From a virus: a DNA stretch of 64,000 bases. Positions 18,601-39,460 of this stretch are shown here, in pieces. Numbering within the stretch: the first letter of the stretch is position 1; the number at the start of each line of letters is the position of its first letter. A program made the translations under genes and the position numbers. The notes beneath the pieces are model-generated. The model saw only the letters and a program-made list of their open reading frames with translations. It was not told the DNA's origin and searched no databases. The DNA is taken from positions 1 through 64,000 of the IMG/VR virus record IMGVR_UViG_3300044843_001040; one strand, written 5' to 3'.

Positions 18601-19266
18601 ATGGGAGATATGCAAAATATCTCCTATTATCTATATCGGATCATCAATCAAGTAAATAATAAAATTTATATTGGTCAAACAAAAAATCCGAAACAAAGGT
18701 GGCGCCGGCATAAAATTGATGCCCGTCACCTTTCTCCATTAATGTTAATTTCTAAAGCTATTAAGAAATATGGGGTAGAAAATTTTACTTTTGAAGTAAT
18801 TGCTACCACAACTAGTTTAAATTTAGCCAATGAGTCAGAAATTGAATTAATTGCTCAATATCAATCGCAAGCACCATTTGGATATAATGCGACTATTGGT
18901 GGTAATAATAAACCAGTGTGTTCTGCATGGAATAAGGGAACTAAAGGTATCATTAAACCTAATAGTGGAAGTTTTAAGCCGGGGCAACCCTCTTGGTTAA
19001 AAGGAAAAATAGGAATTACCCATGGATTTAAAAAAGGACATCAGATTAATGTCGGTAGAAAATTTCCTAATAGGAAAATTCCGGTAGGAGAAAAAACCAG
19101 TCAAGCTAAACTTAAGGGAGAGCAAGTGTTAAAAATAGTGGAATTATATAGAAAAAATTATAGTCAACAACAATTAGCTCAATTATTTAATGTGAGTCGA
19201 GCTGCCATTAAAAAAATTATTACTGGAAAAACTTGGAGTCATATTACGAATATTAATTTACCATAA
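18601..19266 (+). CDS. GIY-YIG homing endonuclease
   Basis: About 221 residues. GIY-YIG core: YYLYRIINQVNNKIYIGQT, Arg in KQRWRRHKID, Glu in LANESEIELIAQYQ. The C-terminus has a DNA-binding helix-turn-helix-like repeat (VLKIVELYRKNYSQQQLAQL). It starts seven bases after the kelch gene, and ends against the MORN array on the other strand. Two close ATGs (residues 1 and 4) are possible starts. Confidence 0.82.
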   Translation: MGDMQNISYYLYRIINQVNNKIYIGQTKNPKQRWRRHKIDARHLSPLMLISKAIKKYGVENFTFEVIATTTSLNLANESEIELIAQYQSQAPFGYNATIGGNNKPVCSAWNKGTKGIIKPNSGSFKPGQPSWLKGKIGITHGFKKGHQINVGRKFPNRKIPVGEKTSQAKLKGEQVLKIVELYRKNYSQQQLAQLFNVSRAAIKKIITGKTWSHITNINLP

Positions 19267-19713
19267 AGCTTTTAATTTAACTACTCTCCAATAATCTTCT
19301 TCTGTATATGGTGTACCGTGAAGATACCATTCTTTATACCCATTACTATATTCTATGGCCGGACCATCTTCTCGATGTCGTTGGCCTGATATATACCAAG
19401 CTTTATAGCCATCATCCCAGATGATGGCTGGACCACCTTCTCGATGTTTTTTACCATGAATCCACCATTCTTGACGGCCACTAATAAAGTCTATTGCTGG
19501 ACCATCTGCTCGATGTAATTTATCATAAATCCACCACTCTTGATCACCATTATTACATTCTATAGCTGGTTTATCTTCTCGATGACATTGTCCATGAAAA
19601 TACCAAAATTTGTCTCCATTAAAATATTCTATCGCTGGACCATCTTCTCGATGCAATTCATCATTCCAATAGTATCTTTTAGTCCCAAGTTCATCTATTA
19701 TAATTTCTTGCAT
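19258..19713 (-). CDS. MORN-like repeat protein, five repeats
   Basis: 151 residues (36 + 5 x 23). Leader MQEIIIDELGTKRYYWND, repeat cores LHREDGPA, CHREDKPA, LHRADGPA, KHREGGPA, RHREDGPA, and tail YTEEDYWRVVKLKALW. Last gene of the 21.4-19.3 kb array; its stop overlaps the end of the GIY-YIG gene. Confidence 0.88.
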   Translation of the reverse strand: MQEIIIDELGTKRYYWNDELHREDGPAIEYFNGDKFWYFHGQCHREDKPAIECNNGDQEWWIYDKLHRADGPAIDFISGRQEWWIHGKKHREGGPAIIWDDGYKAWYISGQRHREDGPAIEYSNGYKEWYLHGTPYTEEDYWRVVKLKALW

Positions 19714-19716
19714 ACT

Positions 19717-20034
19717 TTACCATAAAACTTTGAGCTTTACTACTCTCCAATAATTTTCTTCAGAATACTGAATATGTCTAATCCACCATTCTTTATGACC
19801 ATTAGCATATTCTACTGCTGGACCATCTTCTCGATGACGTTGACCATGAAACCACCAAGATTTATATCCAGAAATAAATTCTACCGCTGGACCATCTTCT
19901 CGATGATATCGGTCATTAAAATACCATTCTTTATCTCCATTAGCACATTCTACTGCGGGTCCATCTTCTCGATGTAATTCACCATTCCAATAGTATTCTT
20001 TATTGCCGAATTTATCTATCTTAATTTTTTGCAT
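19717..20034 (-). CDS. MORN-like repeat protein, three repeats
   Basis: 105 residues. Starts MQKIKIDKFGNK; an ATG 12 bases earlier inside the previous gene's last codons is less likely. Cores LHREDGPA, YHREDGPA, RHREDGPA; tail YSEENYWRVVKLKVLW. Three bases separate it from the next gene. Confidence 0.87.
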   Translation of the reverse strand: MQKIKIDKFGNKEYYWNGELHREDGPAVECANGDKEWYFNDRYHREDGPAVEFISGYKSWWFHGQRHREDGPAVEYANGHKEWWIRHIQYSEENYWRVVKLKVLW

Positions 20035-20039
20035 AAATT

Positions 20040-20426
20040 TTACCATAAAGCTTTCAATTTAACCACTCGCCAATATTCTTGCTCTGAATATTGTTTACCT
20101 TGAAGGTACCATTCTTTCATTTTATTAGAATATTCTAGAGCAGGGCCATCTTCTCGATGGCGTTTTCCATGAATCCAATATTCTTTACTACCATCAGCAT
20201 ATTCTATCGCCGGACCGTCTTCTCGATGACGTTGACTATGAAGATACCAATGTTTTCCATCAAGGGAACTATCTATCGCTGGGCCGTCTTCTCTATGCCA
20301 TCGCCCATGACAATACCAATATTTATCCCCATTAATATACTCTATTGCCGGACCGTCTTCTCGATGTATGATACCATTCCAATAATATCTTTTATTACCA
20401 AATTCATCTATTTTAATTTCTTGCAT
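20040..20426 (-). CDS. MORN-like repeat protein, four repeats
   Basis: 128 residues. Cores IHREDGPA, WHREDGPA, RHREDGPA, RHREDGPA; tail YSEQEYWRVVKLKALW. Its second repeat has a less typical DSSLDGKHWYLH spacer. Confidence 0.88.
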   Translation of the reverse strand: MQEIKIDEFGNKRYYWNGIIHREDGPAIEYINGDKYWYCHGRWHREDGPAIDSSLDGKHWYLHSQRHREDGPAIEYADGSKEYWIHGKRHREDGPALEYSNKMKEWYLQGKQYSEQEYWRVVKLKALW

Positions 20427-20429
20427 ACT

Positions 20430-20816
20430 TTACCACAAAGCTTGTAATTTAACCACTCTCCAATAGTCTTCTTCTGAATATGGCGTACCGTGAAGGTACC
20501 AAGATTTATCTCCATTAGCATATTCGATAGCCGGGCCATCTTCTCGATGGAAAAGACCATGAAGACACCATATTTTACTTCCATCAGCATATTCTCTGGC
20601 CGGGCCATCTTCTCGGTGGTACTTTCCATAAAAATACCACTCTTTAGATCCATTATTATATTCTAGGGCTGGACCATCTTTTCGATGGAGTTGATTATGA
20701 AAATACCACTCTTTAGTTCCATTAGGCCATTCTATGGCTGGACCATCTTCTCGATGCAGCTAACCATTCCAATAATATCTTTTAGTTCCATCTTTATCTA
20801 TCTTAATTTCTTGCAT
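20430..20816 (-). pseudogene. MORN-like gene with an in-frame TAG
   Basis: The frame is the right length for 128 residues and four repeats (LHREDGPA, LHRKDGPA, YHREDGPA, LHREDGPA) with an intact tail, but codon 19 is TAG where sister genes have CAG or CAA (NGQLHRED). No in-frame ATG follows. It is either a fresh nonsense mutation or a suppressed stop. No suppressor tRNA was found in the window. Confidence 0.8.
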
Positions 20817-20819
20817 ACT

Positions 20820-21134
20820 TCACCATAAAGCTTTTAATTTAACTAGCCGCCAATATTCTTCTTCTGTATATTGTTTACCTTGAAGGTACCACTCTTTATC
20901 TCCATTAGACCATTCTATGGCTGGTCCATCTTCTCGATGTCGTTGACCATGAAGATACCAATATTTAGTTCCATTAGCATATTCTACGGCTGGTCTATCT
21001 TCTCGATGACGAGAGCCATGAAGATACCAATGTTCATCGCCATTAAAAAATTTTATCGCAGGGCCATCTTCTCGATGGAGACGATCACTCCAATAATAAT
21101 ATTTTCCCCAGTGATCTTCTTTAATTTCTTGCAT
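20820..21134 (-). CDS. MORN-like repeat protein, three repeats
   Basis: 104 residues, one short of the ladder because the leader reads MQEIKEDHWGKYYYWSD. Cores LHREDGPA, RHREDRPA, RHREDGPA; tail YTEEEYWRLVKLKALW. Confidence 0.87.
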   Translation of the reverse strand: MQEIKEDHWGKYYYWSDRLHREDGPAIKFFNGDEHWYLHGSRHREDRPAVEYANGTKYWYLHGQRHREDGPAIEWSNGDKEWYLQGKQYTEEEYWRLVKLKALW

Positions 21135-21138
21135 AACT

Positions 21139-21456
21139 TCACCATAAAGTTTTTAATTTAACCACTCGCCAATAGTCTTCTTCTGAATATTGTTTATCAT
21201 TAATAAACCAAGCTTTAAAACCGCTAGAATATTCGGCTGCTGGCCCATCTTCTCGATGTCGTTGACCATGAAGATACCAAGCTTTACTGCCATCAGACCA
21301 TTCTATGGCGGGGCCTCCTTCTCGATGACGTTGATCGTTAAAATACCATTCTTGAGAACCATCTGCAAACTCGATGGCTGGACCATCTTCTCGATGGAGA
21401 TGGTCATCCTCGAAATAGAGAATCTTATTGCTAAATCGTATTATTTCTTTTGCCAT
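21139..21456 (-). CDS. MORN-like repeat protein, three repeats, unusual leader
   Basis: 105 residues. The leader MAKEIIRFSNKILYFEDD differs from the MQEIK type. Cores LHREDGPA, RHREGGPA, RHREDGPA; tail YSEEDYWRVVKLKTLW. First gene of this array; the right end of a TnpB element lies about 30 bases upstream and may have cut it from its promoter. Confidence 0.86.
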   Translation of the reverse strand: MAKEIIRFSNKILYFEDDHLHREDGPAIEFADGSQEWYFNDQRHREGGPAIEWSDGSKAWYLHGQRHREDGPAAEYSSGFKAWFINDKQYSEEDYWRVVKLKTLW

Positions 21457-21485
21457 AATTATGCCACTAAAATCACATTAATTTT

Positions 21486-22750
21486 GTCAATTATCACCAG
21501 CACAAGGCTGGTGGCTTGTAAGTAGCTTCGCTGCTCTTACCATAGGCTGATTGACTTCAGCCCCATTAAATAACATATAGTCATCTAATGCTCGTCTGCT
21601 AATATTTCTACTAGCATTTAAGTCTGCATTTAGTTTAAATCCACATTGTTGACAACAAAAACTAACCTGAGTCTTCCTGTTTTTCTTCTCAGTAAACCCG
21701 CATTTACTACATTGTTGACTGGTATAAGCAGGATTAACATGGACTACTTGTATGCCTTTTGCCTGACCTTTATAGGTTAGGAACTGCTCTAGTTGATAAT
21801 AATTCCAACTATTCAAGGCTGATCTTTGAGGTTTTCTCATACGTGATCTTCTAATACCAATTAACTTTTCTAGTACTACGGTATCACCTGGATTTAAACT
21901 ATTAATAATCTGTTTACTAATCTGATGGTTAATGTCTGCTTTAAACCGTTTTTCTTTACCTGAAAGGTTTCTAAGATGCCTTTTAGCAGATGGACTACCA
22001 ACTTTCTGTAATTTTCTCCTTAATGCTTTATACTTGTGACATATTGACTTAAGTTTACTTCCGCAATAAAACTTATTATCTGAAGTAACGGCTAACTTTT
22101 TGATACCTCGATCAACTCCTAAAAACTTACCATTAACCTTTACGTCTTCTCTTTCTTTCTCAAAAGAGATATGCAAATAGATAGTATTCTTCTTAATCAG
22201 AAGGTCAGCACTAGTATACTTCCAATCAGTAAAATAATGCTGATAATACTGAGGAATATCTAGCTTAATTTTCTTTCTACCAGCAATAGTCAGAATAGAC
22301 ACAACTCCAGATTTAGAGATAGAGTAGCTATTACAATCTAGTCGAATGGCAGCTAACTTTGACTGTGGACATTTGCTATACTTATTTTTAGCTTTAATGC
22401 TTTTAAGAGCTTCTGCGGCTTTAGTTCTAGCAGAAATTGCTAATTGAGATGGTAAGTTAAAGTTAGTTCGACAGTCTTGGTAAGTTAGCTTATGTAGTTT
22501 AATAGAATTAGTTATTTTGCTCTTGTAACCTATTTGACAGACAAGATTAAAAGCAGCAGTATAAGCTTGCAGTGAAGGTAGAATTTCTTCTGCCTTGACA
22601 TCAAGTTTTAGTTTGACCGTTCTATATAACCTCATATGTAGTGATATATCAATATATAGGAATTTTTGTGTAACCTAAAAATTTATTTAGATAGCAGAAA
22701 GGAGAGGCAATTCCTCCCTCAGCACAAGGCTGAGGGTGTCCTTGCCTAAA
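21486..22750 (-). mobile_element. TnpB-only transposon-like element
   Basis: Left end 22706-22746: outer GGCAA/TTGCC pairs around hairpin CCCTCAGC-CTTGT-GCTGAGGG, the same two-tier layout as the other IS605-type left ends. Right end about 21495-21513: hairpin CACCAGC-CTTGT-GCTGGTG. No transposase gene is inside. The outer limits are approximate. Confidence 0.65.
21487..22635 (-). CDS. tnpB: TnpB-family RuvC nuclease, divergent
   Basis: 382 residues. RuvC residues: Asp near 175 (LGVDRGIKK), Glu near 256 (VVLEKLIG), Asp near 338 (NADLNASRN). Zinc ribbon CSKCG...CCQQCG. The N-terminal half lacks the usual YKYRIYP start and instead has RTVKLKLDVKAEEI, so it belongs to a different branch from the two IS605 TnpBs here. 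All catalytic residues are kept. Confidence 0.88.
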   Translation of the reverse strand: MRLYRTVKLKLDVKAEEILPSLQAYTAAFNLVCQIGYKSKITNSIKLHKLTYQDCRTNFNLPSQLAISARTKAAEALKSIKAKNKYSKCPQSKLAAIRLDCNSYSISKSGVVSILTIAGRKKIKLDIPQYYQHYFTDWKYTSADLLIKKNTIYLHISFEKEREDVKVNGKFLGVDRGIKKLAVTSDNKFYCGSKLKSICHKYKALRRKLQKVGSPSAKRHLRNLSGKEKRFKADINHQISKQIINSLNPGDTVVLEKLIGIRRSRMRKPQRSALNSWNYYQLEQFLTYKGQAKGIQVVHVNPAYTSQQCSKCGFTEKKNRKTQVSFCCQQCGFKLNADLNASRNISRRALDDYMLFNGAEVNQPMVRAAKLLTSHQPCAGDN

Positions 22751-22754
22751 GATC

Positions 22755-23147
22755 ATGAAAAAAGCCACTCTTCAACTAGTTAAACAAGCTAATAAATTAT
22801 TAAAAAAATATGCTGATATTGATGCTAATGAAATGAAACAAGAAATAGCAGATTATATTAAGCAACAAGTAGCTAATGCTTCTACTAGTACCGAAACTAG
22901 TGGTGTTATGCCTTTTGTTAGTATGTTACAAGAGGATGGAGCCACATTGGCTATTAATGTAGTCAGAGACGGTAATAAAATTAAAGTTTCTTATCCAGCA
23001 GTAGCTCCTAGCCATTTAACAGATAAGTACTCTCCATTATCTAATCAAATTAGAAATTATCTGCAAAGAAATTTAGAATTATTTGGAACCGTTAAAAATG
23101 GCGAAGATATTGATTATGATGATTTTACGTTTACATTAAATTATTAA
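22755..23147 (+). CDS. Hypothetical protein, 130 residues
   Basis: Not recognised. Starts MKKATLQLVKQANKLLKKYAD, a basic helical N-terminus similar in style to the starts of the genes at 34.1 and 49.5 kb (virion-type proteins, inference). The rest is mixed and acidic at the end. The TnpB left end lies just upstream and the gene converges on the MORN array. The two stops overlap the junction. Confidence 0.6.
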   Translation: MKKATLQLVKQANKLLKKYADIDANEMKQEIADYIKQQVANASTSTETSGVMPFVSMLQEDGATLAINVVRDGNKIKVSYPAVAPSHLTDKYSPLSNQIRNYLQRNLELFGTVKNGEDIDYDDFTFTLNY

Positions 23148-23510
23148 TCACCATAAAGCTTGTAATTTTAGCGATCTATCAAATTCTTCTTGAGAAGAAG
23201 AAGTGACAAATTTGCCTTTAAACCACCATTCTTTCCGGCCAGAAACATGTTCTATGGCTGGTCCGTCTTCTCGATGAAGAAGATCATGACAATACCACTC
23301 TTGATTACCATTATCATAGATAATGGCTGGCCCATCCATACGATGGAGTTGACCGTAATTAAACCACATTTGAGAGCCATTAGCTCGCTCAATAGCTGGA
23401 CCATTTTCTCGATGAAGAGTACTATTGAATAGCCAATATTTATCTCCTTCGTTATCCATCAGCAAGAAATAAGATTTATTATCTTCTATAATAGTTTTCG
23501 TCTGATACAT
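23148..23510 (-). CDS. MORN-like repeat protein, three repeats, variant ends
   Basis: 120 residues. The leader is longer (MYQTKTIIEDNKSYFLLMDN) and the tail differs: FVTSSSQEEFDRSLKLQALW in place of YSEEEYWRVVKL. Cores LHRENGPA, LHRMDGPA, LHREDGPA. Last gene of the 25.8-23.1 kb array; stop is TGA. Confidence 0.85.
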   Translation of the reverse strand: MYQTKTIIEDNKSYFLLMDNEGDKYWLFNSTLHRENGPAIERANGSQMWFNYGQLHRMDGPAIIYDNGNQEWYCHDLLHREDGPAIEHVSGRKEWWFKGKFVTSSSQEEFDRSLKLQALW

Positions 23511-23513
23511 AAT

Positions 23514-24047
23514 TTACCAAAATAATTTTAATTTTAAATAGCGCTGAAAATCTAATTGACAAGAGACTGGTATTTTAACGTCGCAGTAAAACCATCTTTT
23601 ACTTCCATCAAAAGATTCTACTGCTGGACCATCTTCTCGATGAAGTTTTCCATGACGATACCATTCTTTATATCCATCAGCCAGTTCTACTGCTGGACCA
23701 TCTTCTCGATGAAGTTTTCCATGACGATACCATTCTTTACTTCCATCAAAAGATTCTACTGCTGGACCACCTTCTCGATGTCTTTTGCCATGAATCCACC
23801 ATTGTTTATCTCCATTAGAATATTCTATGGCTGGACCATCTTCTCGATGTAATTGCCCCTTAACCCACCATTCTTTAGCTCCACTAATACGATCTATGGC
23901 TGGACCATCTTCTCGATGTCGTTGACCATGAATCCACCATTCTTTACTACCATTAGCATATTCTAGGGCTGGACCATCTTCTCGATGTAGATCACCTTTC
24001 AAAAAATATTTTTTGGTCCCCAATTTGTCGATTTTAATTTTTTGCAT
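23514..24047 (-). CDS. MORN-like repeat protein, six repeats
   Basis: 177 residues. Six cores (LHREDGPA four times, RHREDGPA, RHREGGPA). Repeats five and six are nearly identical at the DNA level, sharing the string that codes for KEWYRHGKLHREDGPAVE, which suggests a recent unit duplication. The tail is divergent (IPVSCQLDFQRYLKLKLFW), like that of the next gene. Confidence 0.87.
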   Translation of the reverse strand: MQKIKIDKLGTKKYFLKGDLHREDGPALEYANGSKEWWIHGQRHREDGPAIDRISGAKEWWVKGQLHREDGPAIEYSNGDKQWWIHGKRHREGGPAVESFDGSKEWYRHGKLHREDGPAVELADGYKEWYRHGKLHREDGPAVESFDGSKRWFYCDVKIPVSCQLDFQRYLKLKLFW

Positions 24048-24050
24048 ACT

Positions 24051-24431
24051 TTACCATAAAGCTTGTAACTTTACTACTCTCCAATAATCTTCTTCTGAAT
24101 ATTTTTGACCGTTAAGATACCATTCTTTAGTTCCAGCAGATCCTTTAATTGAATTAACACCATATTCTATCGCATCGTGAAGATACCACTCTTTACCTCC
24201 ATTAAGATATTCTATTGCTGGACCATCTGTTCGATGTAATTTACCATGAAACCACCATTGTTTACAATCATTAGGATGTTCTATGGCAGGACCATCTTCT
24301 CGATGTCGTTGACCATGAAGATACCAATCTTTTCTACCATCTTTATATTCTATAGCAGGACCATCTTCTCTATGTAACTGACCATTATAAGAATAATATA
24401 TATTACCAAATTGATTTACAATTGTTTGCAT
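24051..24431 (-). CDS. MORN-like repeat protein with one scrambled repeat
   Basis: 126 residues from the ATG at MQTIVNQFGN; a GTG nine bases earlier is less likely. Cores LHREDGPA, RHREDGPA and LHRTDGPA, then a fourth unit in which the HREDGPA core is lost and replaced by DAIEYGVNSIKGSAG. The tail is normal (YSEEDYWRVVKLQALW). The change probably came from an unequal exchange inside the repeat. Confidence 0.83.
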   Translation of the reverse strand: MQTIVNQFGNIYYSYNGQLHREDGPAIEYKDGRKDWYLHGQRHREDGPAIEHPNDCKQWWFHGKLHRTDGPAIEYLNGGKEWYLHDAIEYGVNSIKGSAGTKEWYLNGQKYSEEDYWRVVKLQALW

Positions 24432-24433
24432 AA

Positions 24434-24679
24434 TTACCACAAAGCTTTGAGCTTAACTACTCGCCAATATTCTTTTTCTGAATATTGTTTACCTTGAAGC
24501 CACCACTCTTTAAGCCCACTAAAATGTTGTATAGCTGGACCATCTTCTCGATGACGCTGATCATGAAGATACCAAAATTTACTTCCATCAGTATATTCTA
24601 TGGCAGGACCATCTTCTCGATGTAATTGGCCATTCCAATAATAAGATTTACCCCAGCGGTCTGTTTTAATTTCCTGCAT
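24434..24679 (-). CDS. MORN-like repeat protein, two repeats
   Basis: 81 residues. Cores LHREDGPA and RHREDGPA; leader MQEIKTDRWGKSYYWNG; tail YSEKEYWRVVKLKALW. A TAA stop is followed two bases later by the next ATG. Confidence 0.87.
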   Translation of the reverse strand: MQEIKTDRWGKSYYWNGQLHREDGPAIEYTDGSKFWYLHDQRHREDGPAIQHFSGLKEWWLQGKQYSEKEYWRVVKLKALW

Positions 24680-24683
24680 AACT

Positions 24684-25001
24684 TTACCACAAAGCTTTCA
24701 ATTTAACTAATCTCCAATACTCTTCTTCTGTATATTCTTTGCCTTGAATATAGAATCCTGTGAAGCCACAAGGTGATTCAAATGCTGGGCCATCTATTCG
24801 ATGTCGTTGACCATGATAATACCAAACTTTAATTCCAGTGCTATGCTCCATCGCAGGAGCATTTTCTCGATGCAATTGACCATGCATCCACCACTCTTTA
24901 GAACCATTAGGCCATTCTATAGCTGGACCATCTTCTCGATGTATCTGACTATTCCAATAATATTTTTTAGTCCCATCTCCATCTATTTTAATTTCTTGCA
25001 T
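24684..25001 (-). CDS. MORN-like repeat protein, three repeats
   Basis: 105 residues. Cores IHREDGPA, LHRENAPA, RHRIDGPA; the last spacer has FESPCGFTGFYIQGKE, one of the few Cys in the family. Tail YTEEEYWRLVKLKALW. Confidence 0.86.
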   Translation of the reverse strand: MQEIKIDGDGTKKYYWNSQIHREDGPAIEWPNGSKEWWMHGQLHRENAPAMEHSTGIKVWYYHGQRHRIDGPAFESPCGFTGFYIQGKEYTEEEYWRLVKLKALW

Positions 25002-25002
25002 A

Positions 25003-25323
25003 CTATTGCCATAACGCTTTCAATTTAACCACTCGCCAATAGTCTTCTTCAGAGTATTCTTTATTTTGAAGAAACCACCATTTTACTCCATTGATATAAT
25101 CCATGGCCGGACCATCTTCTCGATGATGTCGACCATGAATAAGCCATTCTTTGGATCCATCAGACCATTCGATAGCTGGGCCATCTTCTCGATGAAGAAT
25201 ACCATTCCAATAATATTCTTTGGTTCCAGAAATAAACTCTACTGCTGGGCCATCTTCTCGATGTTTTTGACCATTATAGTAATAAAATTTATTATCCTCT
25301 TGATCTATTTTCACTTTTTGCAT
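25003..25323 (-). CDS. MORN-like repeat protein, three repeats
   Basis: 106 residues. Leader MQKVKIDQEDNKFYYYNG; cores KHREDGPA, LHREDGPA, HHREDGPA; tail YSEEDYWRVVKLKALWQ with an extra Gln. Confidence 0.86.
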   Translation of the reverse strand: MQKVKIDQEDNKFYYYNGQKHREDGPAVEFISGTKEYYWNGILHREDGPAIEWSDGSKEWLIHGRHHREDGPAMDYINGVKWWFLQNKEYSEEDYWRVVKLKALWQ

Positions 25324-25327
25324 AAAT

Positions 25328-25846
25328 TTACCATAAAGCTTTTAATTTCACCACTCTCCAATATTCTTCTCCTGAATAGATTTTATCTTGAAGATACCAC
25401 AATTTAATTCCATTAGCATATTCTATAGCCGGACCATCTTCTCGATGTAATTTGCCGTGATACCACCACTCTTTAGCTCCACTAGAATATTCAATAGCAG
25501 GGCCATCTTCTCGATGAAGACGTCCATTAAAATACCAGACTTTATTATCCGGGCTTTCTAAGGCTGGACCATCTATTCGATGGAGTTGACCATGAAGCCA
25601 CCATTGTTTATCCCCATTAGCTACTTCTACCGCTGGACCGCCCTCTCGATGGCATTGACTATAGAGATGCCATTCTTTGGATCCACTCTCCCACTCTATA
25701 GCTGGACCGTTTTCTCGATGTCGTTGACCATGAATCCACCATTGCTTATGGCCCTCAGACCATTCTGCCGCTGGACCATCTTCTCGATGGAGTTGACCAT
25801 TCCAATAATAGCATTTACTAAATTCATCTTCTTTAATTTCTTGCAT
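25328..25846 (-). CDS. MORN-like repeat protein, six repeats, first of its array
   Basis: 172 residues. Cores LHREDGPA, RHRENGPA, CHREGGPA, LHRIDGPA, LHREDGPA, LHREDGPA. The third-from-last spacer is two residues short (ALESPDNKVWYFNGR). Unlike genes inside the array it has a good ribosome site (GAGG, five bases before ATG), preceded by a small palindrome CGATAAATTATCG. Confidence 0.88.
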   Translation of the reverse strand: MQEIKEDEFSKCYYWNGQLHREDGPAAEWSEGHKQWWIHGQRHRENGPAIEWESGSKEWHLYSQCHREGGPAVEVANGDKQWWLHGQLHRIDGPALESPDNKVWYFNGRLHREDGPAIEYSSGAKEWWYHGKLHREDGPAIEYANGIKLWYLQDKIYSGEEYWRVVKLKALW

Positions 25847-29563: not shown

Positions 29564-29566
29564 ATT

Positions 29567-29884
29567 TCACCACAAAGCTTTCAACTTAACTAATCGCCAA
29601 TATTCTTCTTCTGTATATTTTTTACCTTGAAGGAACCACGCTTTATAGCCATCAACATGATCTGCTGCTGGGCCATCTTCTCGATGACATTTGCCATGAA
29701 ACCACCATTCTTTACTACCATTACCATATTCTACTGCCGGGCCATCGTCTCGATGAAGACGACCATGACGATACCAATATTTATTTCCATTAGCATATTC
29801 TACGGCTGGACCAGCTTCTCGATGGAGTTGACCATTATAAGAATAAAATTTATTACCATATTTATCTGTTGTAATTTTTTCCAT
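29567..29884 (-). CDS. MORN-like repeat protein, three repeats
   Basis: 105 residues. Leader MEKITTDKYGNKFYSYNG; cores LHREAGPA, LHRDDGPA, CHREDGPA; tail YTEEEYWRLVKLKALW. Confidence 0.87.
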   Translation of the reverse strand: MEKITTDKYGNKFYSYNGQLHREAGPAVEYANGNKYWYRHGRLHRDDGPAVEYGNGSKEWWFHGKCHREDGPAADHVDGYKAWFLQGKKYTEEEYWRLVKLKALW

Positions 29885-29887
29885 ACT

Positions 29888-29922
29888 TCACCATAAAAAT
29901 TTAAGCTTTACTGTTCGCCAAT
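29888..29922 (-). pseudogene. Stranded MORN tail
   Basis: After the stop of the next gene upstream, the bases code for DWRTVKLKFLW and a TGA, the family tail, in a different frame. It is the lost C-terminal end of the MORN gene interrupted at 29926-30897. Confidence 0.75.
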
Positions 29923-29925
29923 CTA

Positions 29926-30897: not shown

Positions 30898-30900
30898 ATT

Positions 30901-31284
30901 TCACCACAAAGCTTGTAATTTAACTACTCGCCAAAACTCTTCTTTAGAATATTGTTTACCTTGAAGATACCACCTTTTAGTGCCATTAGCTAATTCTACA
31001 GCTGAGCCATCTTCTCGATGATAAATACCATTAATAAGCCATATTTTAGTTCCACCAATATTATCTACGGCTGGACCGTCTTCTCGATGACGTTGGTCAT
31101 GAATCCACCACTCTGTATCTCCATTAATTCGCTCTATGGCTGGACCATCTGTTCGATGTAGTTGACCATGAAGATACCAAGATTTATCTCCATTAGCCCA
31201 TTCTACTGCAGGCCCGTCTTCTCGATGATAAACTCCATCGACCATCCAAAAAATATCTCCCTCATCATTTGTATACTTTACCAT
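30901..31284 (-). CDS. MORN-like repeat protein, four repeats, altered start
   Basis: 127 residues. The usual start ATGCAAGAA has become ATACAAATG, and the frame now begins at ATGGTAAAG, which overlaps the last Trp codon and stop of the upstream gene. Cores YHREDGPA, LHRTDGPA, RHREDGPA, YHREDGSA; tail YSKEEFWRVVKLQALW. Confidence 0.84.
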   Translation of the reverse strand: MVKYTNDEGDIFWMVDGVYHREDGPAVEWANGDKSWYLHGQLHRTDGPAIERINGDTEWWIHDQRHREDGPAVDNIGGTKIWLINGIYHREDGSAVELANGTKRWYLQGKQYSKEEFWRVVKLQALW

Positions 31285-31664
31285 AAAGCTTTTAACTTAA
31301 CTACTCGCCAATAGTCTTCTTCTGAATATTTCTTTTCTTGCAACCAATATTCTTTAATTCCATCAGCATATTCTATGGCCGGGCCATCTTCTCGATGGAT
31401 TTCACCATGAAGAAACCAATATTTCGTTCCATTAGCGCGCTCTACTGCCGGTCCATCTTCCCGATGGAGTTTACCGTAAACCCACCATTCTTTAATAGAA
31501 TTATAAGTAAATTTTACTGCGGGACCATCTGTTCGATGCAGTTTGCCATGAAGATACCATTCTGTACTTCCGTCATTATTCTCTATAGCTGGACCATCTT
31601 CTCGATGTAATCGACCATTAAAGAAATAATGTTTACCATATTTATTTGTTTTTATTTCTTGCAT
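31278..31664 (-). CDS. MORN-like repeat protein, four repeats
   Basis: 128 residues. Cores LHREDGPA, LHRTDGPA, LHREDGPA, IHREDGPA. The second spacer has one extra residue (VKFTYNSIKEWW) and the leader one fewer. Tail YSEEDYWRVVKLKALW. Confidence 0.87.
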   Translation of the reverse strand: MQEIKTNKYGKHYFFNGRLHREDGPAIENNDGSTEWYLHGKLHRTDGPAVKFTYNSIKEWWVYGKLHREDGPAVERANGTKYWFLHGEIHREDGPAIEYADGIKEYWLQEKKYSEEDYWRVVKLKALW

Positions 31665-31667
31665 ACT

Positions 31668-31982
31668 TTACCATAAAGCTTTTAATTTAACTATTCTCCA
31701 ATAGTCTTTTTCGGTATATTCTTTACCTTGAAGAAACCAATATTTGTTTCCAACAACCCATTCTATGGCAGGACCATCTTCTCGATGTAATTGACCGTGA
31801 AGATACCATTCTTTATTTCCATTAACCCATTCTAATGCTGGACCATTTGTTCGATGTAGTTTACCATGTAAACGCCATTCTTTATATCCACTAGGTTCTT
31901 CTAACGCCGGCCCATCTTCTCGATGTAAGTTCCCATTATAACAATAATATTTACCCCATTTATTTTCTTTAATTTCTTGCAT
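31668..31982 (-). CDS. MORN-like repeat protein, three repeats
   Basis: 104 residues. Leader MQEIKENKWGKYYCYNG; cores LHREDGPA, LHRTNGPA, LHREDGPA; tail YTEKDYWRIVKLKALW. Confidence 0.87.
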   Translation of the reverse strand: MQEIKENKWGKYYCYNGNLHREDGPALEEPSGYKEWRLHGKLHRTNGPALEWVNGNKEWYLHGQLHREDGPAIEWVVGNKYWFLQGKEYTEKDYWRIVKLKALW

Positions 31983-31986
31983 AACT

Positions 31987-32337
31987 TTACCATAAAGTTT
32001 TCAACTTAACTAGTCTCCAATATTTTTTTTCTGAAGAAATTTTATTATCTTGTATAAACCATGATTTTCCGCCATCAGGCCATTCAATAGCGGGGCCATC
32101 TGATCGATGAAGTTGACCATAAAGATACCAACATTTAACTCCATTAGCGTATACTACTGCAGGTCCATCTTCTCGATGAAGATGGCCATGAAGACACCAA
32201 TGTTTTTCTCCACTGCTAAATTCTCTCGCCGGACCATCTTCTCGATGAACAAGATTATTCGCATAATATTCTTTAATTAGAATACCATTATAAAGGCTCC
32301 ACCTATATATTCTGATCCATTTATTGTTCATGGTCAA
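31987..32337 (-). CDS. MORN-like repeat protein, three repeats, long leader
   Basis: 116 residues. The leader MTMNNKWIRIYRWSLYNG is unlike the rest. Cores VHREDGPA, LHREDGPA, LHRSDGPA; tail ISSEKKYWRLVKLKTLW. First gene of this array; its start overlaps the stop of the LAGLIDADG gene by 17 bases. Confidence 0.84.
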   Translation of the reverse strand: MTMNNKWIRIYRWSLYNGILIKEYYANNLVHREDGPAREFSSGEKHWCLHGHLHREDGPAVVYANGVKCWYLYGQLHRSDGPAIEWPDGGKSWFIQDNKISSEKKYWRLVKLKTLW

Positions 32338-33373
32338 TTACATTTCTTTTATTACTATCTCTTTTCAAAAAAGCCACATAACTCTCTTTAAGAGAGAATT
32401 TCTCCGCAATTTGCCGATGAGTTAAATGCTCAAACAAAGAGTCAATCTCTTGAATCAAGGATTCGCTAACCATTTTAGGCTTCCTAAACCCGTTAAAATT
32501 TTTAGCCCTCTCTACGGGATACAGGGTTTTTAATTGTTGATAATAACCAATTTTTCTTAATCTAGAAACTAATCCCCAAGCCGACACATTCAAATGCTGA
32601 GCCGTCAACTTAAACGATCCGTGATAAGAACAAACTAAATTAAATAATTCCTGATCACCTGGCCAATCTTTAATAGGCAACTTATTAAAACTTAATAACT
32701 TGTCTGGCGACCAACGAGACTCATAATGGTTAATAATTTCAAAAGCTTGAGCCTTCTTTCTATCTAAACTAAAACAATCTGGTTGATAATAAATATGTTT
32801 TAATAATTTATATGCATTCAAATTTACGATAGATAGCCTATACATTTGAGTAGTAGAACTAGCTGCTTGACCATTAATAGTGGTAGTAATCCAAGGCGTT
32901 TCCTTGAGAGAAAGAGTAAAACCTAAAGTTGAATTAAGATAATCTTTGACTCCATTAATTAAATGGAAGGATGCCGAGTCAAATCTAATCATCGGAGATT
33001 TGTAAAATCCAATGCTTCCATCTCCATCTAATAACCCTCGAATCAAATCTGGATAATATTTTTCTGGTATAGTTGGAAACTTGACTATTTTAGTTTTATT
33101 CGGGACGCAACCATAAGAGACTAACCACTCAGCAATCGCTTGGCAATTAAAACTTAATTTAAAACAATTAGAATTTTTAATTTTGACTAGCGATTTAGTA
33201 GGGCATACTAACTTAGCAATAGCGTGCAATAAGGACACATCAATTGATTTGATGGAAACCTCATATCCATGCTTCAGATATACATTACCATCCGTAATGT
33301 ACAATCCCAAAAAATAAAAGGATAAAGCTGTTTCATCGGTAAAAATATTAGGATAATAGGTATATCTCATCAT
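32321..33373 (-). CDS. LAGLIDADG homing endonuclease
   Basis: 350 residues with two LAGLIDADG helices, FLGLYITDGNVY near residues 22-33 and LIRGLLDGDGSIGF near 112-125, as expected of a single-chain enzyme. The C-terminal 120 residues add helix-turn-helix-like segments (QELFNLVCSYHGSFKLTAQHL; HRQIAEKFSLKESYV) that may bind DNA. It stands free between an HNH gene and a MORN array, with no sign of a surrounding intron. Confidence 0.88.
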   Translation of the reverse strand: MMRYTYYPNIFTDETALSFYFLGLYITDGNVYLKHGYEVSIKSIDVSLLHAIAKLVCPTKSLVKIKNSNCFKLSFNCQAIAEWLVSYGCVPNKTKIVKFPTIPEKYYPDLIRGLLDGDGSIGFYKSPMIRFDSASFHLINGVKDYLNSTLGFTLSLKETPWITTTINGQAASSTTQMYRLSIVNLNAYKLLKHIYYQPDCFSLDRKKAQAFEIINHYESRWSPDKLLSFNKLPIKDWPGDQELFNLVCSYHGSFKLTAQHLNVSAWGLVSRLRKIGYYQQLKTLYPVERAKNFNGFRKPKMVSESLIQEIDSLFEHLTHRQIAEKFSLKESYVAFLKRDSNKRNVIDHEQ

Positions 33374-33384
33374 GAGATGCTATA

Positions 33385-33909
33385 TCACTGATATTTTTTC
33401 TTATAATATTCAGATGAGAGGAAAGGTTGTTGGGGAAGTTTGCGGATGAGTCGGAGCTGGAGCTGTCTGCTATAACGCCCCGCACACAGCCTGCTACAAA
33501 ATGGCCCAGCTCGCTTCTTCTTCGCCTTATCCCTCAACAACCTGGGACTTCTCTCAAATTCCTTATCACACAAGGCGCACTTCAATTTAACCAATTTCAC
33601 CCGACGAGTATCATCTGCCGAATGCTGATCCCGAGGAACCAATCTTAAATTCGATAAATCATTATTTAAATAATTGGAATCCCAATGATCTACGGTTTCT
33701 AAATCGGGGTCTAAAGTTCGACCTAAATGTTCTTCCATTAAGAATTTAGGATAGCTAACAGTTCTCCGAGAACCGTCTTCTTCTACGACAATGACAATTT
33801 GTCGACCATCTAAACGATGGTACGGGCCATACACTTTACTAGCTTGGGCTAATAAATAATAGCTATCAATCTCTTCTAGCAGGGCTCCATATTTAGATAA
33901 ATTGCTCAT
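33385..33909 (-). CDS. HNH homing endonuclease with zinc ribbon
   Basis: About 174 residues from MSNLSKYG. HNH core: ETVDHWDSNYLNNDLSNLRL then PRDQHSADD. A C-terminal zinc ribbon (CALCDKEF ... FCSRLCAGRYS) resembles those of T4-like HNH enzymes. Longer starts would translate leader element A, so the internal ATG is chosen. Its promoter and leader are a decayed copy of the tRNA-Tyr region. Confidence 0.82.
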   Translation of the reverse strand: MSNLSKYGALLEEIDSYYLLAQASKVYGPYHRLDGRQIVIVVEEDGSRRTVSYPKFLMEEHLGRTLDPDLETVDHWDSNYLNNDLSNLRLVPRDQHSADDTRRVKLVKLKCALCDKEFERSPRLLRDKAKKKRAGPFCSRLCAGRYSRQLQLRLIRKLPQQPFLSSEYYKKKYQ

Positions 33910-33945
33910 GCCTATATATGGCAAACTATTAGTTAGTCGGCGCCC

Positions 33946-33976
33946 GTCTCCACGTATGGAGCAATTAGAACTTATG
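33946..33976 (-). promoter_or_regulatory. Element A, copy 3 (leader hairpin)
   Basis: ATAAGTTCTAATTGCTC then CTCCA-TACG-TGGAG-AC: a perfect five-pair stem with a UACG (UNCG-type) loop. It follows directly on the tRNA-Tyr remnant in the leader of the HNH gene. Confidence 0.65.
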
Positions 33977-33978
33977 TC

Positions 33979-34014
33979 AGACAACGGGTCCTCTCAGAGA
34001 TCTAGTCAGACAGG
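33979..34014 (-). pseudogene. 5' half of a tRNA-Tyr gene
   Basis: The bases match the first 36 positions of the intact tRNA-Tyr (44276-44311), with five differences, and stop within the anticodon arm where element A begins. The similarity goes on upstream through AATTTCCCAGAGTGG and the promoter. It cannot make a tRNA but may fold as a leader. Confidence 0.8.
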
Positions 34015-34034
34015 ATAATTTCCCAGAGTGGTAT

Positions 34035-34062: not shown

Positions 34063-34081
34063 GGGCTAAACTAATCCCCAA

Positions 34082-34783: not shown

Positions 34784-34812
34784 GTAAAATATGAGTAACT
34801 ATTAATAGATAG

Positions 34813-34886: not shown

Positions 34887-34938
34887 ATAAAGTAACAATC
34901 TTAATATAACACGCGACTAATGTTAATATTTCAAAAAA

Positions 34939-35394
34939 TTACCATAAAGCTTTAAGTTTAATCATTTGCCAATATTCTTGTTCTGAATATCTTTTATCTT
35001 GAAGAAACCAATACTTATTTCCATTAGTGCCTTCTACTGCTGGTCCATCTTCTCGATGGAATTTACCATGACGGTACCACTCTTTATGGCCATTAGCATT
35101 TTCTAATGCTGGACCATCAACTCGATGTAGTTTGTCATGAAGATACCAATGTTTAGATCCATGAGCATATTCTACTGCCGGACCATCTTCTCGATGACGT
35201 TGACCATGAAGATACCATTCTTTACTTCCATCAGAATATTCTACCGCTGGACCGTCTTCTCGATGTTGTTGGTCATTAATAAACCAATATTTTTCCCCAT
35301 TAATAGACTCTATTGCCGGACCGTCTTCTCGATGCAATTTACCATTGCAATAATATCTTTTAGTTCCGTCTTTATCAACCTTAATTTCTTGCAT
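34939..35394 (-). CDS. MORN-like repeat protein, five repeats
   Basis: 151 residues. Cores LHREDGPA, QHREDGPA, RHREDGPA, LHRVDGPA, FHREDGPA; tail YSEQEYWQMIKLKALW. Confidence 0.88.
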   Translation of the reverse strand: MQEIKVDKDGTKRYYCNGKLHREDGPAIESINGEKYWFINDQQHREDGPAVEYSDGSKEWYLHGQRHREDGPAVEYAHGSKHWYLHDKLHRVDGPALENANGHKEWYRHGKFHREDGPAVEGTNGNKYWFLQDKRYSEQEYWQMIKLKALW

Positions 35395-35397
35395 ACT

Positions 35398-35712
35398 TTA
35401 CCACAAAGCTTTCAACTTAACTAATCGCCAATAAGATTCTTCTAAGTAGAATTTCCCATGCAGATAAAATGCTTTGGCGCCATTTTGTTGTTCAATCGCT
35501 GGCCCATCTTCTCGATGGAGCTGCCCCTGATAATACCATAATTTATGTGTTTTTTTAACAATTGCCGGCCCGTCCTCTCTATGAGGTAGACCATACATCC
35601 AATATTCTTGTTCTCCATTGTAATATTCTACCGCTGGACCATCTTCTCGGTGTGGCTGATTATTCCAATAATAATATTGGGATCCATTTTTCTCTGTTAT
35701 AATTTTTTGCAT
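35398..35712 (-). CDS. MORN-like repeat protein, three repeats
   Basis: 104 residues. Cores PHREDGPA (twice) and LHREDGPA. The second spacer is short (IVKKTHKLWYYQGQ). Tail YLEESYWRLVKLKALW. Confidence 0.86.
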   Translation of the reverse strand: MQKIITEKNGSQYYYWNNQPHREDGPAVEYYNGEQEYWMYGLPHREDGPAIVKKTHKLWYYQGQLHREDGPAIEQQNGAKAFYLHGKFYLEESYWRLVKLKALW

Positions 35713-35716
35713 TATG

Positions 35717-35879
35717 TTACCAGAAAGCTTTTAATTTAACTAAACGCCAATATATTTTTTCAGAATAATTTTTACCTTGAAGGTACCAATATTTACGATC
35801 TTTATAGCAGAAAGCCAACCACTTTAGTGGTTGGACCATTAGCAAATTCTATGGCAGATCCATTCTCTCGATGGAGTTA
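35717..35879 (-). pseudogene. Broken MORN-like gene with an inserted palindrome
   Basis: Only one repeat core (LHRENGSAIEFANG) and the tail (YSEKIYWRLVKLKAFW) remain. Between ANG and DRKYWYLQG about 34 bases have been inserted, which shift the frame, and the 5' part is missing. The insert is a palindrome like a transposon end. Confidence 0.8.
35815..35834. repeat. Inserted palindrome, transposon-end-like
   Basis: CCAACCACT-TT-AGTGGTTGG, preceded on the plus strand by GAAAG. It resembles the right end of the TnpB element at 10.06 kb (GAAG, then CCACTACC stem, CTTTA loop). It may be a solo end left by excision or a tiny non-autonomous copy. Confidence 0.5.
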
Positions 35880-35880
35880 T

Positions 35881-36294: not shown

Positions 36295-36317
36295 ACTTAC
36301 CTGTTAATTATCCTTAA

Positions 36318-36908: not shown

Positions 36909-36909
36909 A

Positions 36910-37365
36910 TTAATACCACAAAGCTTTTAATTTAACTACTCGCCAATATTCTTTCTCTGAATATTTTTTACCTTGAAGGTACCACGCTTTATATCCATCA
37001 GTATGATCTGCTGCAGGTCCATCTTCTCGATGCCGTTTTCCCTGAAGCCACCAATCTTTACTTCCATCGGCATATTCTATAGCTGGTCCGTTTTCTCGAT
37101 GACATCGACCGTGGATCCACCACCCTTTATATCCATTAACCTTTTCTACTGCTGAACCATCTTCTCGATGAAGAAGGCTATGACGATACCAAAATTTACT
37201 TCCATTAGAAAATTCTACTGCTGGACCATCTTCTCGATGACGCTGACCATGAAGCCACCATTCTTTATCTCCCTCATAATCTTCTACTGCCGGACCATCT
37301 TCTCGGTGCAACTGATTATTCCAGTAATAATATATACCAAATTGATCTGTTTCTATTTCTTGCAT
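36910..37365 (-). CDS. MORN-like repeat protein, five repeats
   Basis: 151 residues. Cores LHREDGPA, RHREDGPA, LHREDGSA, CHRENGPA, RHREDGPA; tail YSEKEYWRVVKLKALWY. Last gene of the 39.2-36.9 kb array. Confidence 0.88.
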   Translation of the reverse strand: MQEIETDQFGIYYYWNNQLHREDGPAVEDYEGDKEWWLHGQRHREDGPAVEFSNGSKFWYRHSLLHREDGSAVEKVNGYKGWWIHGRCHRENGPAIEYADGSKDWWLQGKRHREDGPAADHTDGYKAWYLQGKKYSEKEYWRVVKLKALWY

Positions 37366-37368
37366 ACT

Positions 37369-37620
37369 TTACCACAAAGTTTTTAATTTAAGTACTCGAA
37401 AATATTCTTCTTCTGAATATTCTTCGCCTTGAAGATACCAGAATTTCCGCCCATCATTATATTCCTTGGCAGGACCATCTTCTCGATGTCTTTTGCCATG
37501 AATCCACCACTCTTTATCTCCATTAACATACTCTATGGCGGGACTATTTTCTCGATGGTATTTATGACCCAAATAATAATATGTAGCATGTTCAGTGATA
37601 ATTTTTAGATGTTTTACCAT
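37369..37620 (-). CDS. MORN-like repeat protein, two repeats, altered start
   Basis: 83 residues. The frame starts at ATGGTAAAACATC, overlapping the previous stop, and the usual MQEIK start is gone. Cores YHRENSPA and RHREDGPA; tail YSEEEYFRVLKLKTLW. Confidence 0.85.
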   Translation of the reverse strand: MVKHLKIITEHATYYYLGHKYHRENSPAIEYVNGDKEWWIHGKRHREDGPAKEYNDGRKFWYLQGEEYSEEEYFRVLKLKTLW

Positions 37621-37856
37621 AAAGATTTTAATTTAAGTGCTCTCCAATATTCTTCTTCGGAATATCGTTTGCCTTGAAGGTACCAATATTTAGTTCCATC
37701 ATTATTTTCTATGGCGGCACCATCTTCTCGATGTAACTGACCATGAAGATACCAATATTTATCTCCATTAGTATTTTCTAGGGCTGGTCCATCTTCTCGA
37801 TGAAGTTTGCCATTACAAAAATAATGTTTATTATTAAACATATCTGTATATATCAT
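37614..37856 (-). CDS. MORN-like repeat protein, two repeats
   Basis: 80 residues, the smallest intact member. Leader MIYTDMFNNKHYFCNG; cores LHREDGPA and LHREDGAA; tail YSEEEYWRALKLKSLW. Confidence 0.86.
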   Translation of the reverse strand: MIYTDMFNNKHYFCNGKLHREDGPALENTNGDKYWYLHGQLHREDGAAIENNDGTKYWYLQGKRYSEEEYWRALKLKSLW

Positions 37857-37857
37857 A

Positions 37858-38451
37858 TTACCATAAAGCTTGCAATTTAACTAATCGCCAATATTTTTCT
37901 GGCGAATATTTTTTACCTTCTAGGTAAAAAGTTTTACTTCCATTAGAATGTTCTATAGCCGGGCCATCTACTCGATGGCGCAAATCATAACGCCACCATT
38001 CTTTAGTTCCATTAGCATGGATAATGGCTGGTCCATCTTCTCGATGTCGTTGATCATAACGATACCAATATTTATCTCCATTAGCCAATTCTATGGCAGG
38101 ACCATTTTCTCGATGTAATTCATCATGATGATACCAGTGTTTATCTCCATTGGCCTTTTCTACTGCTGGACCATCTTCTCGATGGAGTTGATCATGAAGA
38201 TACCATTCTTTACTGCCATCAGACCATTCTATGGCTGGACCATCTTCTCGATGTCGTCGATCATTAACCCACCACTCTTTAGTTCCATCAGCCTCTTCTA
38301 CTGCAGGGCCATCTTCCCGATGGTATTTATCATAAACCCACCAAGATTTATCTCCATTAGGATATTCTACTGCTGGACCATCTTCTCGATGAAGCTGGTT
38401 ATTCCAGCGATATCTTTTAACGCCATGTTCATCTATCTCAATTTTTTGCAT
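37858..38451 (-). CDS. MORN-like repeat protein, seven repeats
   Basis: 197 residues (36 + 7 x 23), the largest uninterrupted member. Cores LHREDGPA, YHREDGPA, RHREDGPA, LHREDGPA, LHRENGPA, RHREDGPA, RHRVDGPA; tail YSPEKYWRLVKLQALW. Confidence 0.89.
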   Translation of the reverse strand: MQKIEIDEHGVKRYRWNNQLHREDGPAVEYPNGDKSWWVYDKYHREDGPAVEEADGTKEWWVNDRRHREDGPAIEWSDGSKEWYLHDQLHREDGPAVEKANGDKHWYHHDELHRENGPAIELANGDKYWYRYDQRHREDGPAIIHANGTKEWWRYDLRHRVDGPAIEHSNGSKTFYLEGKKYSPEKYWRLVKLQALW

Positions 38452-38455
38452 ATTG

Positions 38456-38842
38456 CTACCATAAAGCTTTTAGTTTAACTACTCGCCAATATTCTTCTTC
38501 TGAATAGCTTTTACCTTGAAGGTGCCAATATTTATGGCCATGAGTATTTTCTATAGCTGGGCCATCTTCTCGATGTAAATTTCCATAATAATACCACTGC
38601 TTAAATCCATTAGCATAATCTATGGCCGGACCACCTTCTCGATGAAGGTGATCATAAATAAACCATTCTTTGTCTCCATTAACCTTCTCTACAGCCGGAC
38701 CATTTTCCCGATGTCTTTGACCATTAAAAAACCAATGCTTATCTCCATCATACCATTCAATAGCTGGACCATCTTCTCGATGGAATTTGCCATTCCAATA
38801 GTATTTTTTAGTTCCACGTTCATCTATTATAATTTCTTGCAT
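38456..38842 (-). CDS. MORN-like repeat protein, four repeats
   Basis: 128 residues. Cores FHREDGPA, RHRENGPA, LHREGGPA, LHREDGPA; tail YSEEEYWRVVKLKALW. Confidence 0.88.
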   Translation of the reverse strand: MQEIIIDERGTKKYYWNGKFHREDGPAIEWYDGDKHWFFNGQRHRENGPAVEKVNGDKEWFIYDHLHREGGPAIDYANGFKQWYYYGNLHREDGPAIENTHGHKYWHLQGKSYSEEEYWRVVKLKALW

Positions 38843-38845
38843 ACT

Positions 38846-39229
38846 TTACCATAAAGTTTTTAACTTGACTACTCGCCAATATTCTTCTTCAGAGTATTCT
38901 TTATCTTGAAGAAACCATCGTTTCTCTCCATCAGCATATTCTACTGCTGGACCATCTTCTCGATGGAGTTGACCATAAATCCACCAAGATTTATCTCCAT
39001 TATAAACCTCTACGGCTGGCCCACCTTCTCGATGGTACTGGCCATAAAAATACCAACATTTATCTCCATTAACATATTCTACTGCGGGACCATCTTCTCG
39101 GTGGCGTTGACCGCGAATCCACCAAGCTTTATCGCCATTTATATATTCTATAGCCGGACCATCTTCCCGATGAAGATCTCCATTACAATAATAAAATTTA
39201 GTACCAATTATATCTATAATTTCTTGCAT
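38846..39229 (-). CDS. MORN-like repeat protein, four repeats
   Basis: 127 residues. Cores LHREDGPA, RHREDGPA, YHREGGPA, LHREDGPA; leader MQEIIDIIGTKFYYCNG; tail YSEEEYWRVVKLKTLW. Confidence 0.88.
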   Translation of the reverse strand: MQEIIDIIGTKFYYCNGDLHREDGPAIEYINGDKAWWIRGQRHREDGPAVEYVNGDKCWYFYGQYHREGGPAVEVYNGDKSWWIYGQLHREDGPAVEYADGEKRWFLQDKEYSEEEYWRVVKLKTLW

Positions 39230-39232
39230 ACT

Positions 39233-39460
39233 TTACCATAAAGCTTTTAGCTTAACTATTCGCCAATACTCTTCTTCAGAATAGTGATCGCCTGCTAGGT
39301 AAAAACTTTTTCTACCATCAGCATGTTCTATGGCCGGCCCATCTATTCGATGCCGTTGATCATTACGATACCAAGCCTTATATCCATTGGCTCCTTCTAA
39401 TGCTGGACCATCTTCTCGATGAAGAGCGCCATAAATATCTTATGTGCCATAATCTTGCTT
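39233..39460 (-). pseudogene. MORN-like gene broken beside the IS607 element
   Basis: Two repeats (LHREDGPA, RHRIDGPA) and the tail YSEEEYWRIVKLKALW are intact, but upstream the frame meets TAA at QDYGT-stop-DIYGALHRED and no start follows. The leader end meets the left flank of the IS607-type element, which probably cut the gene. Confidence 0.8.

Follow-up and report, generated by a model that had tools for sequence, protein, structure and literature searches.

Introduction

What a phage gains by devoting about a fifth of a 64,000-base stretch of its DNA to a single family of small repeat proteins, and how such a family arises, are the questions raised by the locus described here. The stretch, referred to below as the window, comprises positions 1–64,000 of the 71.7-kb IMG/VR record IMGVR_UViG_3300044843_001040. 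A first-pass annotation, made from the sequence alone, had noticed in it 36 genes or fragments that share an HREDGPA repeat core, had described them as MORN-like and had proposed that they multiplied by gene duplication and by gain and loss of 69-bp units. The genes form arrays that have expanded in this phage lineage, and their products are predicted to be β-solenoids. Gain or loss of the 69-bp unit was observed directly only in a relative virus. Tentatively, and with a little less than even confidence, we interpret the family as a varied set of binding proteins that act inside the cell, encoded by a large phage and enlarged by gene duplication and by gain and loss of units.

The record overlaps viral contigs of 128.5 and 121.9 kb, both larger than itself, at 99.985% and 99.991% identity, and the overlapping contigs, taken end to end, give a composite of 140.7 kb, which is the known part of this phage. 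Its genes include a Ro60 homologue, a tRNA synthetase, seven tRNAs and a UvrD-type helicase; ThyX and dUTPase were recognized by eye. Kin contigs of 433–448 kb carry a Ro60 that is 67–70% identical. This gene content, the kin contigs sharing Ro60 and the IMG/VR record itself suggest that the known sequence is a fragment of a very large phage; virion genes were not searched for systematically.

Organization of the arrays

A strict six-frame scan for the motif H[RM]xx[GARS][PASG]A found 122 cores in the window, and 81 of the 86 neighbouring core pairs were spaced exactly 23 residues apart. Ten mononucleotide shuffles, used as the control, yielded only 0–1 cores and no core pair. Open reading frames (ORFs) with at least two units number 35, and 36 ORFs with an HREDGPA core start inside the window once single-unit remnants are counted, which agrees with the first count. 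Together, the repeat ORFs span ~12,930 of the 64,000 bases (20%), the fifth that had been estimated, and every member in the window lies on the minus strand. In the composite, 75 ORFs with at least two units hold 293 cores, 190 neighbouring cores being exactly 23 residues apart, and occupy ~33.2 kb (24% of the DNA). A 36.9-kb contig from the same sample, probably part of the same phage, adds eight genes carrying the identical tail.

A single range, 19258–39460, had been given for the arrays. Arrays do lie there, but as two main arrays (19.26–25.85 and 29.25–39.44 kb) split by ~3.4 kb of unrelated genes, each of the two being interrupted by non-family genes; a third array (62.4–66.6 kb) and a single gene fall outside. 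The features are as follows.

1–366, minus strand: isolated repeat gene at the window edge
19258–21456, minus strand: array 1a, six adjacent repeat genes from ORFs and motif scan (19258–19713, 19717–20046, 20040–20426, 20433–20816, TAG-broken, 20820–21134, 21139–21456)
23148–25846, minus strand: array 1b, seven repeat genes (23148–23510, 23514–24047, 24051–24440, 24434–24679, 24684–25001, 25003–25323, 25328–25846)
29246–32337, minus strand: array 2a, seven repeat genes, including the fusion 29926–30897
34939–35876, minus strand: array 2b, genes 34939–35394 and 35398–35712 and a decayed remnant, 35720–35876
36910–39439, minus strand: array 2c, seven repeat genes (36910–37365, 37369–37620, 37614–37856, 37858–38451 with seven units, 38456–38842, 38846–39229, 39236–39439, leaderless)
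62396–64000, minus strand: array 3, five repeat genes in the window, with four more beyond it up to 66555 of the record

Each member consists of an N-terminal cap (MQEIK..), two to seven 23-residue units with the consensus HREDGPAIEYANGDKEWYLHGKL and a nearly constant C-terminal helix, YSEEEYWRVVKLKALW. Lengths are 80–83 aa for two units, 104–109 for three (116 and 120 in outliers with longer leaders), 127–129 for four, 151 for five (three genes) and 197 for seven. The rule 36 + 23n proposed at first therefore holds, give or take one or two residues, when n is 2, 3, 4, 5 or 7, and 'exactly' was too strong: the six-unit genes (177 and 172 aa) deviate through a different tail or a 22-residue unit. 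Genes had been described as a few bases apart or overlapping, and indeed most stop codons are followed after 3 or 4 bases by the ATG of the next gene, while in four overlaps of −7 that ATG lies inside the preceding TTATGGTAA tail. Translational coupling of the array genes is likely on this arrangement. A promoter scan of the arrays gave 77 hits against 82 expected.

Three or four members are broken or fused: 20433–20816 by an in-frame TAG, 35720–35876 as a remnant, 39236–39439 through lack of the leader and 29926–30897 by fusion. The last continues in frame into ~200 unrelated C-terminal residues, perhaps through a lost stop before a downstream gene. The ORFs antisense to the repeat genes were rejected as real genes, as they appear to be by-products of the repeat codons and are broken by TTA and CTA codons at column 23.

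Much longer repeat ORFs, of 289–762 aa, occur in the flank on contig G001 (L093:10471-12759, L093:710-2224, L092:14394-15917 and L093:13975-14844). Most of them chain at least two leader–units–tail modules, and four or five share a C-terminal helical domain of ~110 residues. In the collections searched, this domain occurs only in this phage; it had no match in Pfam, PHROGs or phage records, and its structure model is poor, with a predicted local distance difference test score (pLDDT) of 59.

Predicted structure and family membership

One four-unit gene was taken as representative and modelled with AlphaFold2 using 31 family sequences; the model was compared with known structures by Foldseek.

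38459–38842, minus strand: representative four-unit gene, predicted β-solenoid with a helix cap at residues 115–127 (pLDDT 96.3)

The model is a confident β-solenoid, with short strands recurring every 23 residues and a C-terminal helix. Five PDB entries matched at E ≤ 0.001, all of them MORN1 and MORN4 structures (including 6t69, 6t68 and 6jle), with a Foldseek probability of 1.00 and moderate TM-scores of 0.31–0.49 for this predicted model. Close matches in phages and giant viruses were found in BFVD.

Like MORN1 and MORN4, the family has 23-residue repeats and an elongated β-hairpin solenoid, here predicted. The MORN consensus has GxG at its start, glycine at position 10 and YEGEW at positions 13–17 (PMC7725318); the present unit departs from it, with GPA in place of GxG and KxWYLxG in place of YEGEW, so that the HREDGPA and KxWYLxG motifs distinguish it from MORN1 and MORN4. 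Neither MORN_2 (PF07661) nor any other Pfam MORN model was hit in an hmmscan of six proteins, even at E ≤ 1. The label MORN-like is apt at the level of the predicted fold; we regard the proteins as probably MORN-type in fold and, because the published consensus is not matched, do not file them as MORN members. Pfam DUF6745 (PF20530) scores over ~16–46 residues around the HREDGPA core and exceeds its cut-off of 27 bits in two tested proteins (32.5 and 30.5 bits), but most members fall below it, only a fragment (positions ~63–107) of the 206-position domain aligns and no above-cut-off match spans the full domain.

Growth of the family

The arrays are a lineage-specific expansion. One family profile gave 102 hits in 128.5 kb of this phage, whereas the kin contigs gave 13 (448 kb), 0 (447 kb), 0 (268 kb) and 1 (433 kb). 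The kin retain the gene order corresponding to 43–56 kb of the window. Homologues of the two genes bordering the arrays are 3.7–5.7 kb apart in four kin phages and 29 kb apart here, and the ~24-kb insertion between them, absent from the kin, holds both main arrays.

16165–45214, strand not assigned: lineage-specific expansion, with border genes 15772–16164 and 45215–45928

The tail of kin members (G005, L012 and L041) is SSQEEFxR..KLKAFW. This type is retained by about six genes here, the first two of array 1b (23148–23510 and 23514–24047) having the kin-type SSQEEFxR..KLK ending, and 55 of the 65 regular genes carry the derived tail YSEEEYWRVVKLKALW. This distribution is what the sequences would show had the family grown out of one founder subtype. 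Since kin have few or no copies, the derived tail predominates and one clear tandem duplicate exists (composite 136370 and 136826, 84% identity), growth by gene duplication is supported, as first proposed.

The history of the units is less direct. The unit tree suggested in the first-pass annotation as a test of exchange between genes is weakly resolved. Gene membership shows no clustering on it (211 changes against 205.5 after shuffling), unit position is clustered (67 against 103) and clustering by array is barely visible. Nucleotide identity is 0.713 between first and internal units of a gene and 0.709 between genes, and for only two of 226 units does the closest match come from the gene that holds them. 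Recent identical copies are not in excess in this phage. These patterns argue against recent duplication within genes as the main source of units and fit old shuffling or saturation, which are indistinguishable here; because the units are so diverged and mixed, recent exchange between genes cannot be dated. Adjacent units in gene pairs show a weak correlation (e.g. r = 0.25 and 0.39), and linkage has therefore not been fully erased.

The direct case for unit gain and loss, and for length variants among close genomes, comes from a relative virus. Its contigs L013 and L014 are 99.4–99.96% identical in DNA to L050 and L053 across roughly 10-kb stretches, and an orthologous gene encodes 262 aa in the former pair and 193 aa in the latter, so that the two alleles are exactly three units (207 bp) apart. 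Within the long one, units 7 and 2 are identical, unit 8 matches unit 5 at 99% and unit 9 corresponds to unit 6 of the short form. Assembly error is unlikely because each length is present in two separate contigs, and unit gain or loss by unequal recombination is the simplest reading.

This genome is not the only expanded member of its group, as the related record G026 has 44 hits in 91 kb. Several other viruses possess long arrays with uniform tails of their own, with a run of 18 genes in L030 and seven or eight genes each in L063, L056 and L017; that such arrays recur is the best indication that they have a function in common.

Selective constraints on units and codons

Between close unit pairs, the structural columns show nonsynonymous differences (pN) of 0.04 and synonymous differences (pS) of 0.27. 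These columns and the tail are under purifying selection while the codons vary. About nine columns per unit (8, 10, 11, 14, 16, 18, 19, 22 and 23) are variable and either free or diversifying. Change counts per column in this phage and in independent viruses agree closely (rho 0.92).

Synonymous choice is also column-specific. Arg2 is encoded by CGA in 94% of cases (24% in other genes), Leu19 by CTT in 86% (10% in other genes) and Ala11 by GCT in 94%, whereas all four codons are in use at Ala7 and the third bases of Gly5-Pro6-Ala7 are randomized. Codon preference alone is an insufficient explanation, because Ala7 and Ala11 behave differently in their codons although both are alanines of one unit. 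The HRED codons could form an RNA hairpin, CATC-GAGAA-GATG. On folding, the genes are slightly more stable than codon shuffles (mean z −0.96, shared column ancestry being uncontrolled).

Neighbouring genes

TnpB/OrfB-type genes lie beside and inside the arrays at 3103–4230 and 40144–41403 (by Pfam and PHROGs) and at 21487–22635 and 8887–10053 (by eye); homing-type nucleases were recognized by eye at 18601–19266, 32321–33373 and 33385–33984. The Ro60/TROVE RNA-binding protein (46189–47742) is 50% identical to a Myxococcus phage Mx1 protein and is conserved in the kin contigs of 268–448 kb. An intein-splicing match (PF14890) falls in the middle of the UvrD-type helicase gene (5560–7929), and the ThyX gene in the flank (composite 133590–135335) also appears by eye to be split by an intein. 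At 22938–22949, four substitutions within 12 bases set the record apart from both larger, otherwise near-identical contigs.

The setting of relatives elsewhere can be compared. On a Frigidibacter plasmid, family relatives adjoin mobC and relaxase genes; in Celeribacter phage P12053L a relative lies in the early region, two genes downstream of ThyX. The neighbourhood in the present phage is non-structural (tRNAs, tRNA synthetase and Ro60). In Duganella qianjiadongensis (L109:5870-8806), mobC and a relaxase-like gene flank several consecutive HREDGPA genes whose starts and stops overlap by 4 bases. Genes that benefit mobile elements would be expected in such places.

Biological role

In the reading that we favour, tandem duplication of genes, together with in-frame addition and removal of entire 69-bp units, would have enlarged a multigene family of small soluble MORN-type β-solenoid proteins with exchangeable units in this lineage. 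Purifying selection would hold the structural positions, with some nine positions per unit left to vary or diversify. The units may form variable binding surfaces on a shared scaffold, and during infection the repertoire could inhibit a range of host proteins in the cell or serve as decoys for them, to counter defences or to take over the host; the constant helix would be a cap or a common docking site. Anatomy, expansion, the column-wise selection pattern and the unit indel in a relative are observed and the fold is predicted, whereas binding, target and role are inferred. An anti-defence role is suggested by genomic context only. Taken by itself, the step to intracellular binding proteins aiding mobile DNA in the host, of which counter-defence is the simplest version, is one that we hold with rather less confidence; it is suggested by the small solenoids, the constant ends and variable units, the non-structural neighbourhood and the placement of the relatives. 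A more specific version, which we think unlikely, is an adaptor repertoire comparable in its logic to variable receptors: dozens of solenoids, each with a variable, unit-shuffled recognition part and a genome-specific constant tail docking on one common machine, would have arisen independently in several viral lineages and been reassorted by unequal crossover.

Several results weigh against a diversified repertoire. Three near-identical assemblies of this phage contained no unit-length variants. No match of known function was obtained in PADLOC, NCBIfam or PHROGs. Positive selection across the family was not upheld, as the apparent excess at hand-picked columns fell to pN/pS 0.74–0.94, with intervals that include 1 or lie just below it, when the variable columns were chosen from eleven other locus groups (viral, and one contig from a bacterial bin); conversely, columns picked in this phage gave 1.07–1.22 in other viruses, again with intervals that include 1. 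Relaxed constraint explains the variable columns too, and positive selection is not proven.

The solenoids might instead be structural, oligomerizing or joining the virion or an intracellular phage compartment, with the copies serving dosage and assembly rather than diversity of targets. MORN1 proteins are protein–protein interaction modules that dimerize and oligomerize (PMC7725318), the constant C-terminal helix could provide an interface, and the fused multi-module ORFs of up to 762 aa share their helical C-terminal domain. Dosage needs no sequence diversity, however, yet paralogs have only ~71% of their unit bases in common, and independent viruses vary at the same columns; no virion gene was recognized beside the arrays (no systematic search was made), and several kin phages lack these genes. 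We consider a scaffolding role unlikely.

The probability is similarly low that growth was mostly selfish or neutral, the 69-bp unit and the coupled gene unit multiplying by unequal recombination and being tolerated by a huge phage. The unit indel between near-identical relatives, the kin that do without arrays and the transposon-type genes in or beside the arrays all agree with it. Most ORFs are intact, though, recent identical copies are not in excess, and structural columns and tail are conserved by purifying selection while codons change. The first-pass argument that so much DNA would not be spent on something dispensable is an argument and not a test: kin phages manage without them, yet here purifying selection on structural columns keeps the ORFs open.

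Binding of one common ligand (a lipid, a nucleic acid or one protein), with variation merely tuning affinity, is improbable. The frequent assumption that MORN repeats bind lipids would favour it, but the study that states this assumption re-evaluates it and presents the repeats as protein–protein interaction modules (PMC7725318), and nothing here hints at binding to membranes or nucleic acids. Hypervariation programmed by a diversity-generating retroelement is close to refuted: columns 11, 14 and 19 do keep a third-base T while their first two bases vary, resembling NNY codons, but column 8 keeps a third-base A, adenines expected to be mutated are conserved (Lys15 AAA, Glu3 GAA) and no reverse transcriptase (PF00078) was found, with positive controls, in nine records comprising the contigs of this incomplete phage genome and five other array or kin records.

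Should the family be a binding repertoire as favoured above, phages can produce and recombine numerous recognition surfaces on a single scaffold with no need of a retroelement, which would offer a genetic handle on the large accessory genomes of huge phages and a source of compact binding scaffolds. Whatever its function, it is an unusually clear case of viral expansion at the level of both gene family and unit, with a closely related virus pair catching the step.

Relation to known systems

The design recalls recognition families built of leucine-rich or ankyrin repeats, which have constant caps, exchangeable units and conserved structural columns alongside variable ones. The likeness is in the way of working and does not extend to homology; ligand binding by the present family would be part of the analogy. 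Closer in sequence is Harvfovirus A0A3G5A1G2, annotated 'MORN repeat-containing' as are other giant-virus proteins with the HREDGPA unit, which shares the unit and the fold (TM-score 0.92, root-mean-square deviation 1.1, 34% identity). Agrobacterium phage Atu_ph07 has the unit and fold in several copies, with six profile hits in 490 kb against 102 in 128.5 kb here (different profiles of one family). The tails of the Harvfovirus and Atu_ph07 proteins differ from that of this phage.

No description of such arrays was found in literature searches, subscription papers being outside their reach. As a large single-family expansion in a jumbo phage, the arrays resemble the lineage-specific paralog expansion of Bacillus phage G, with its ~35 zinc-ribbon copies (PMC7824862). 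They differ in the protein family, in the number of genes, which is roughly double although the genome is partial, and in varying in length by internal units, and are thus an extreme variant of an already known kind.

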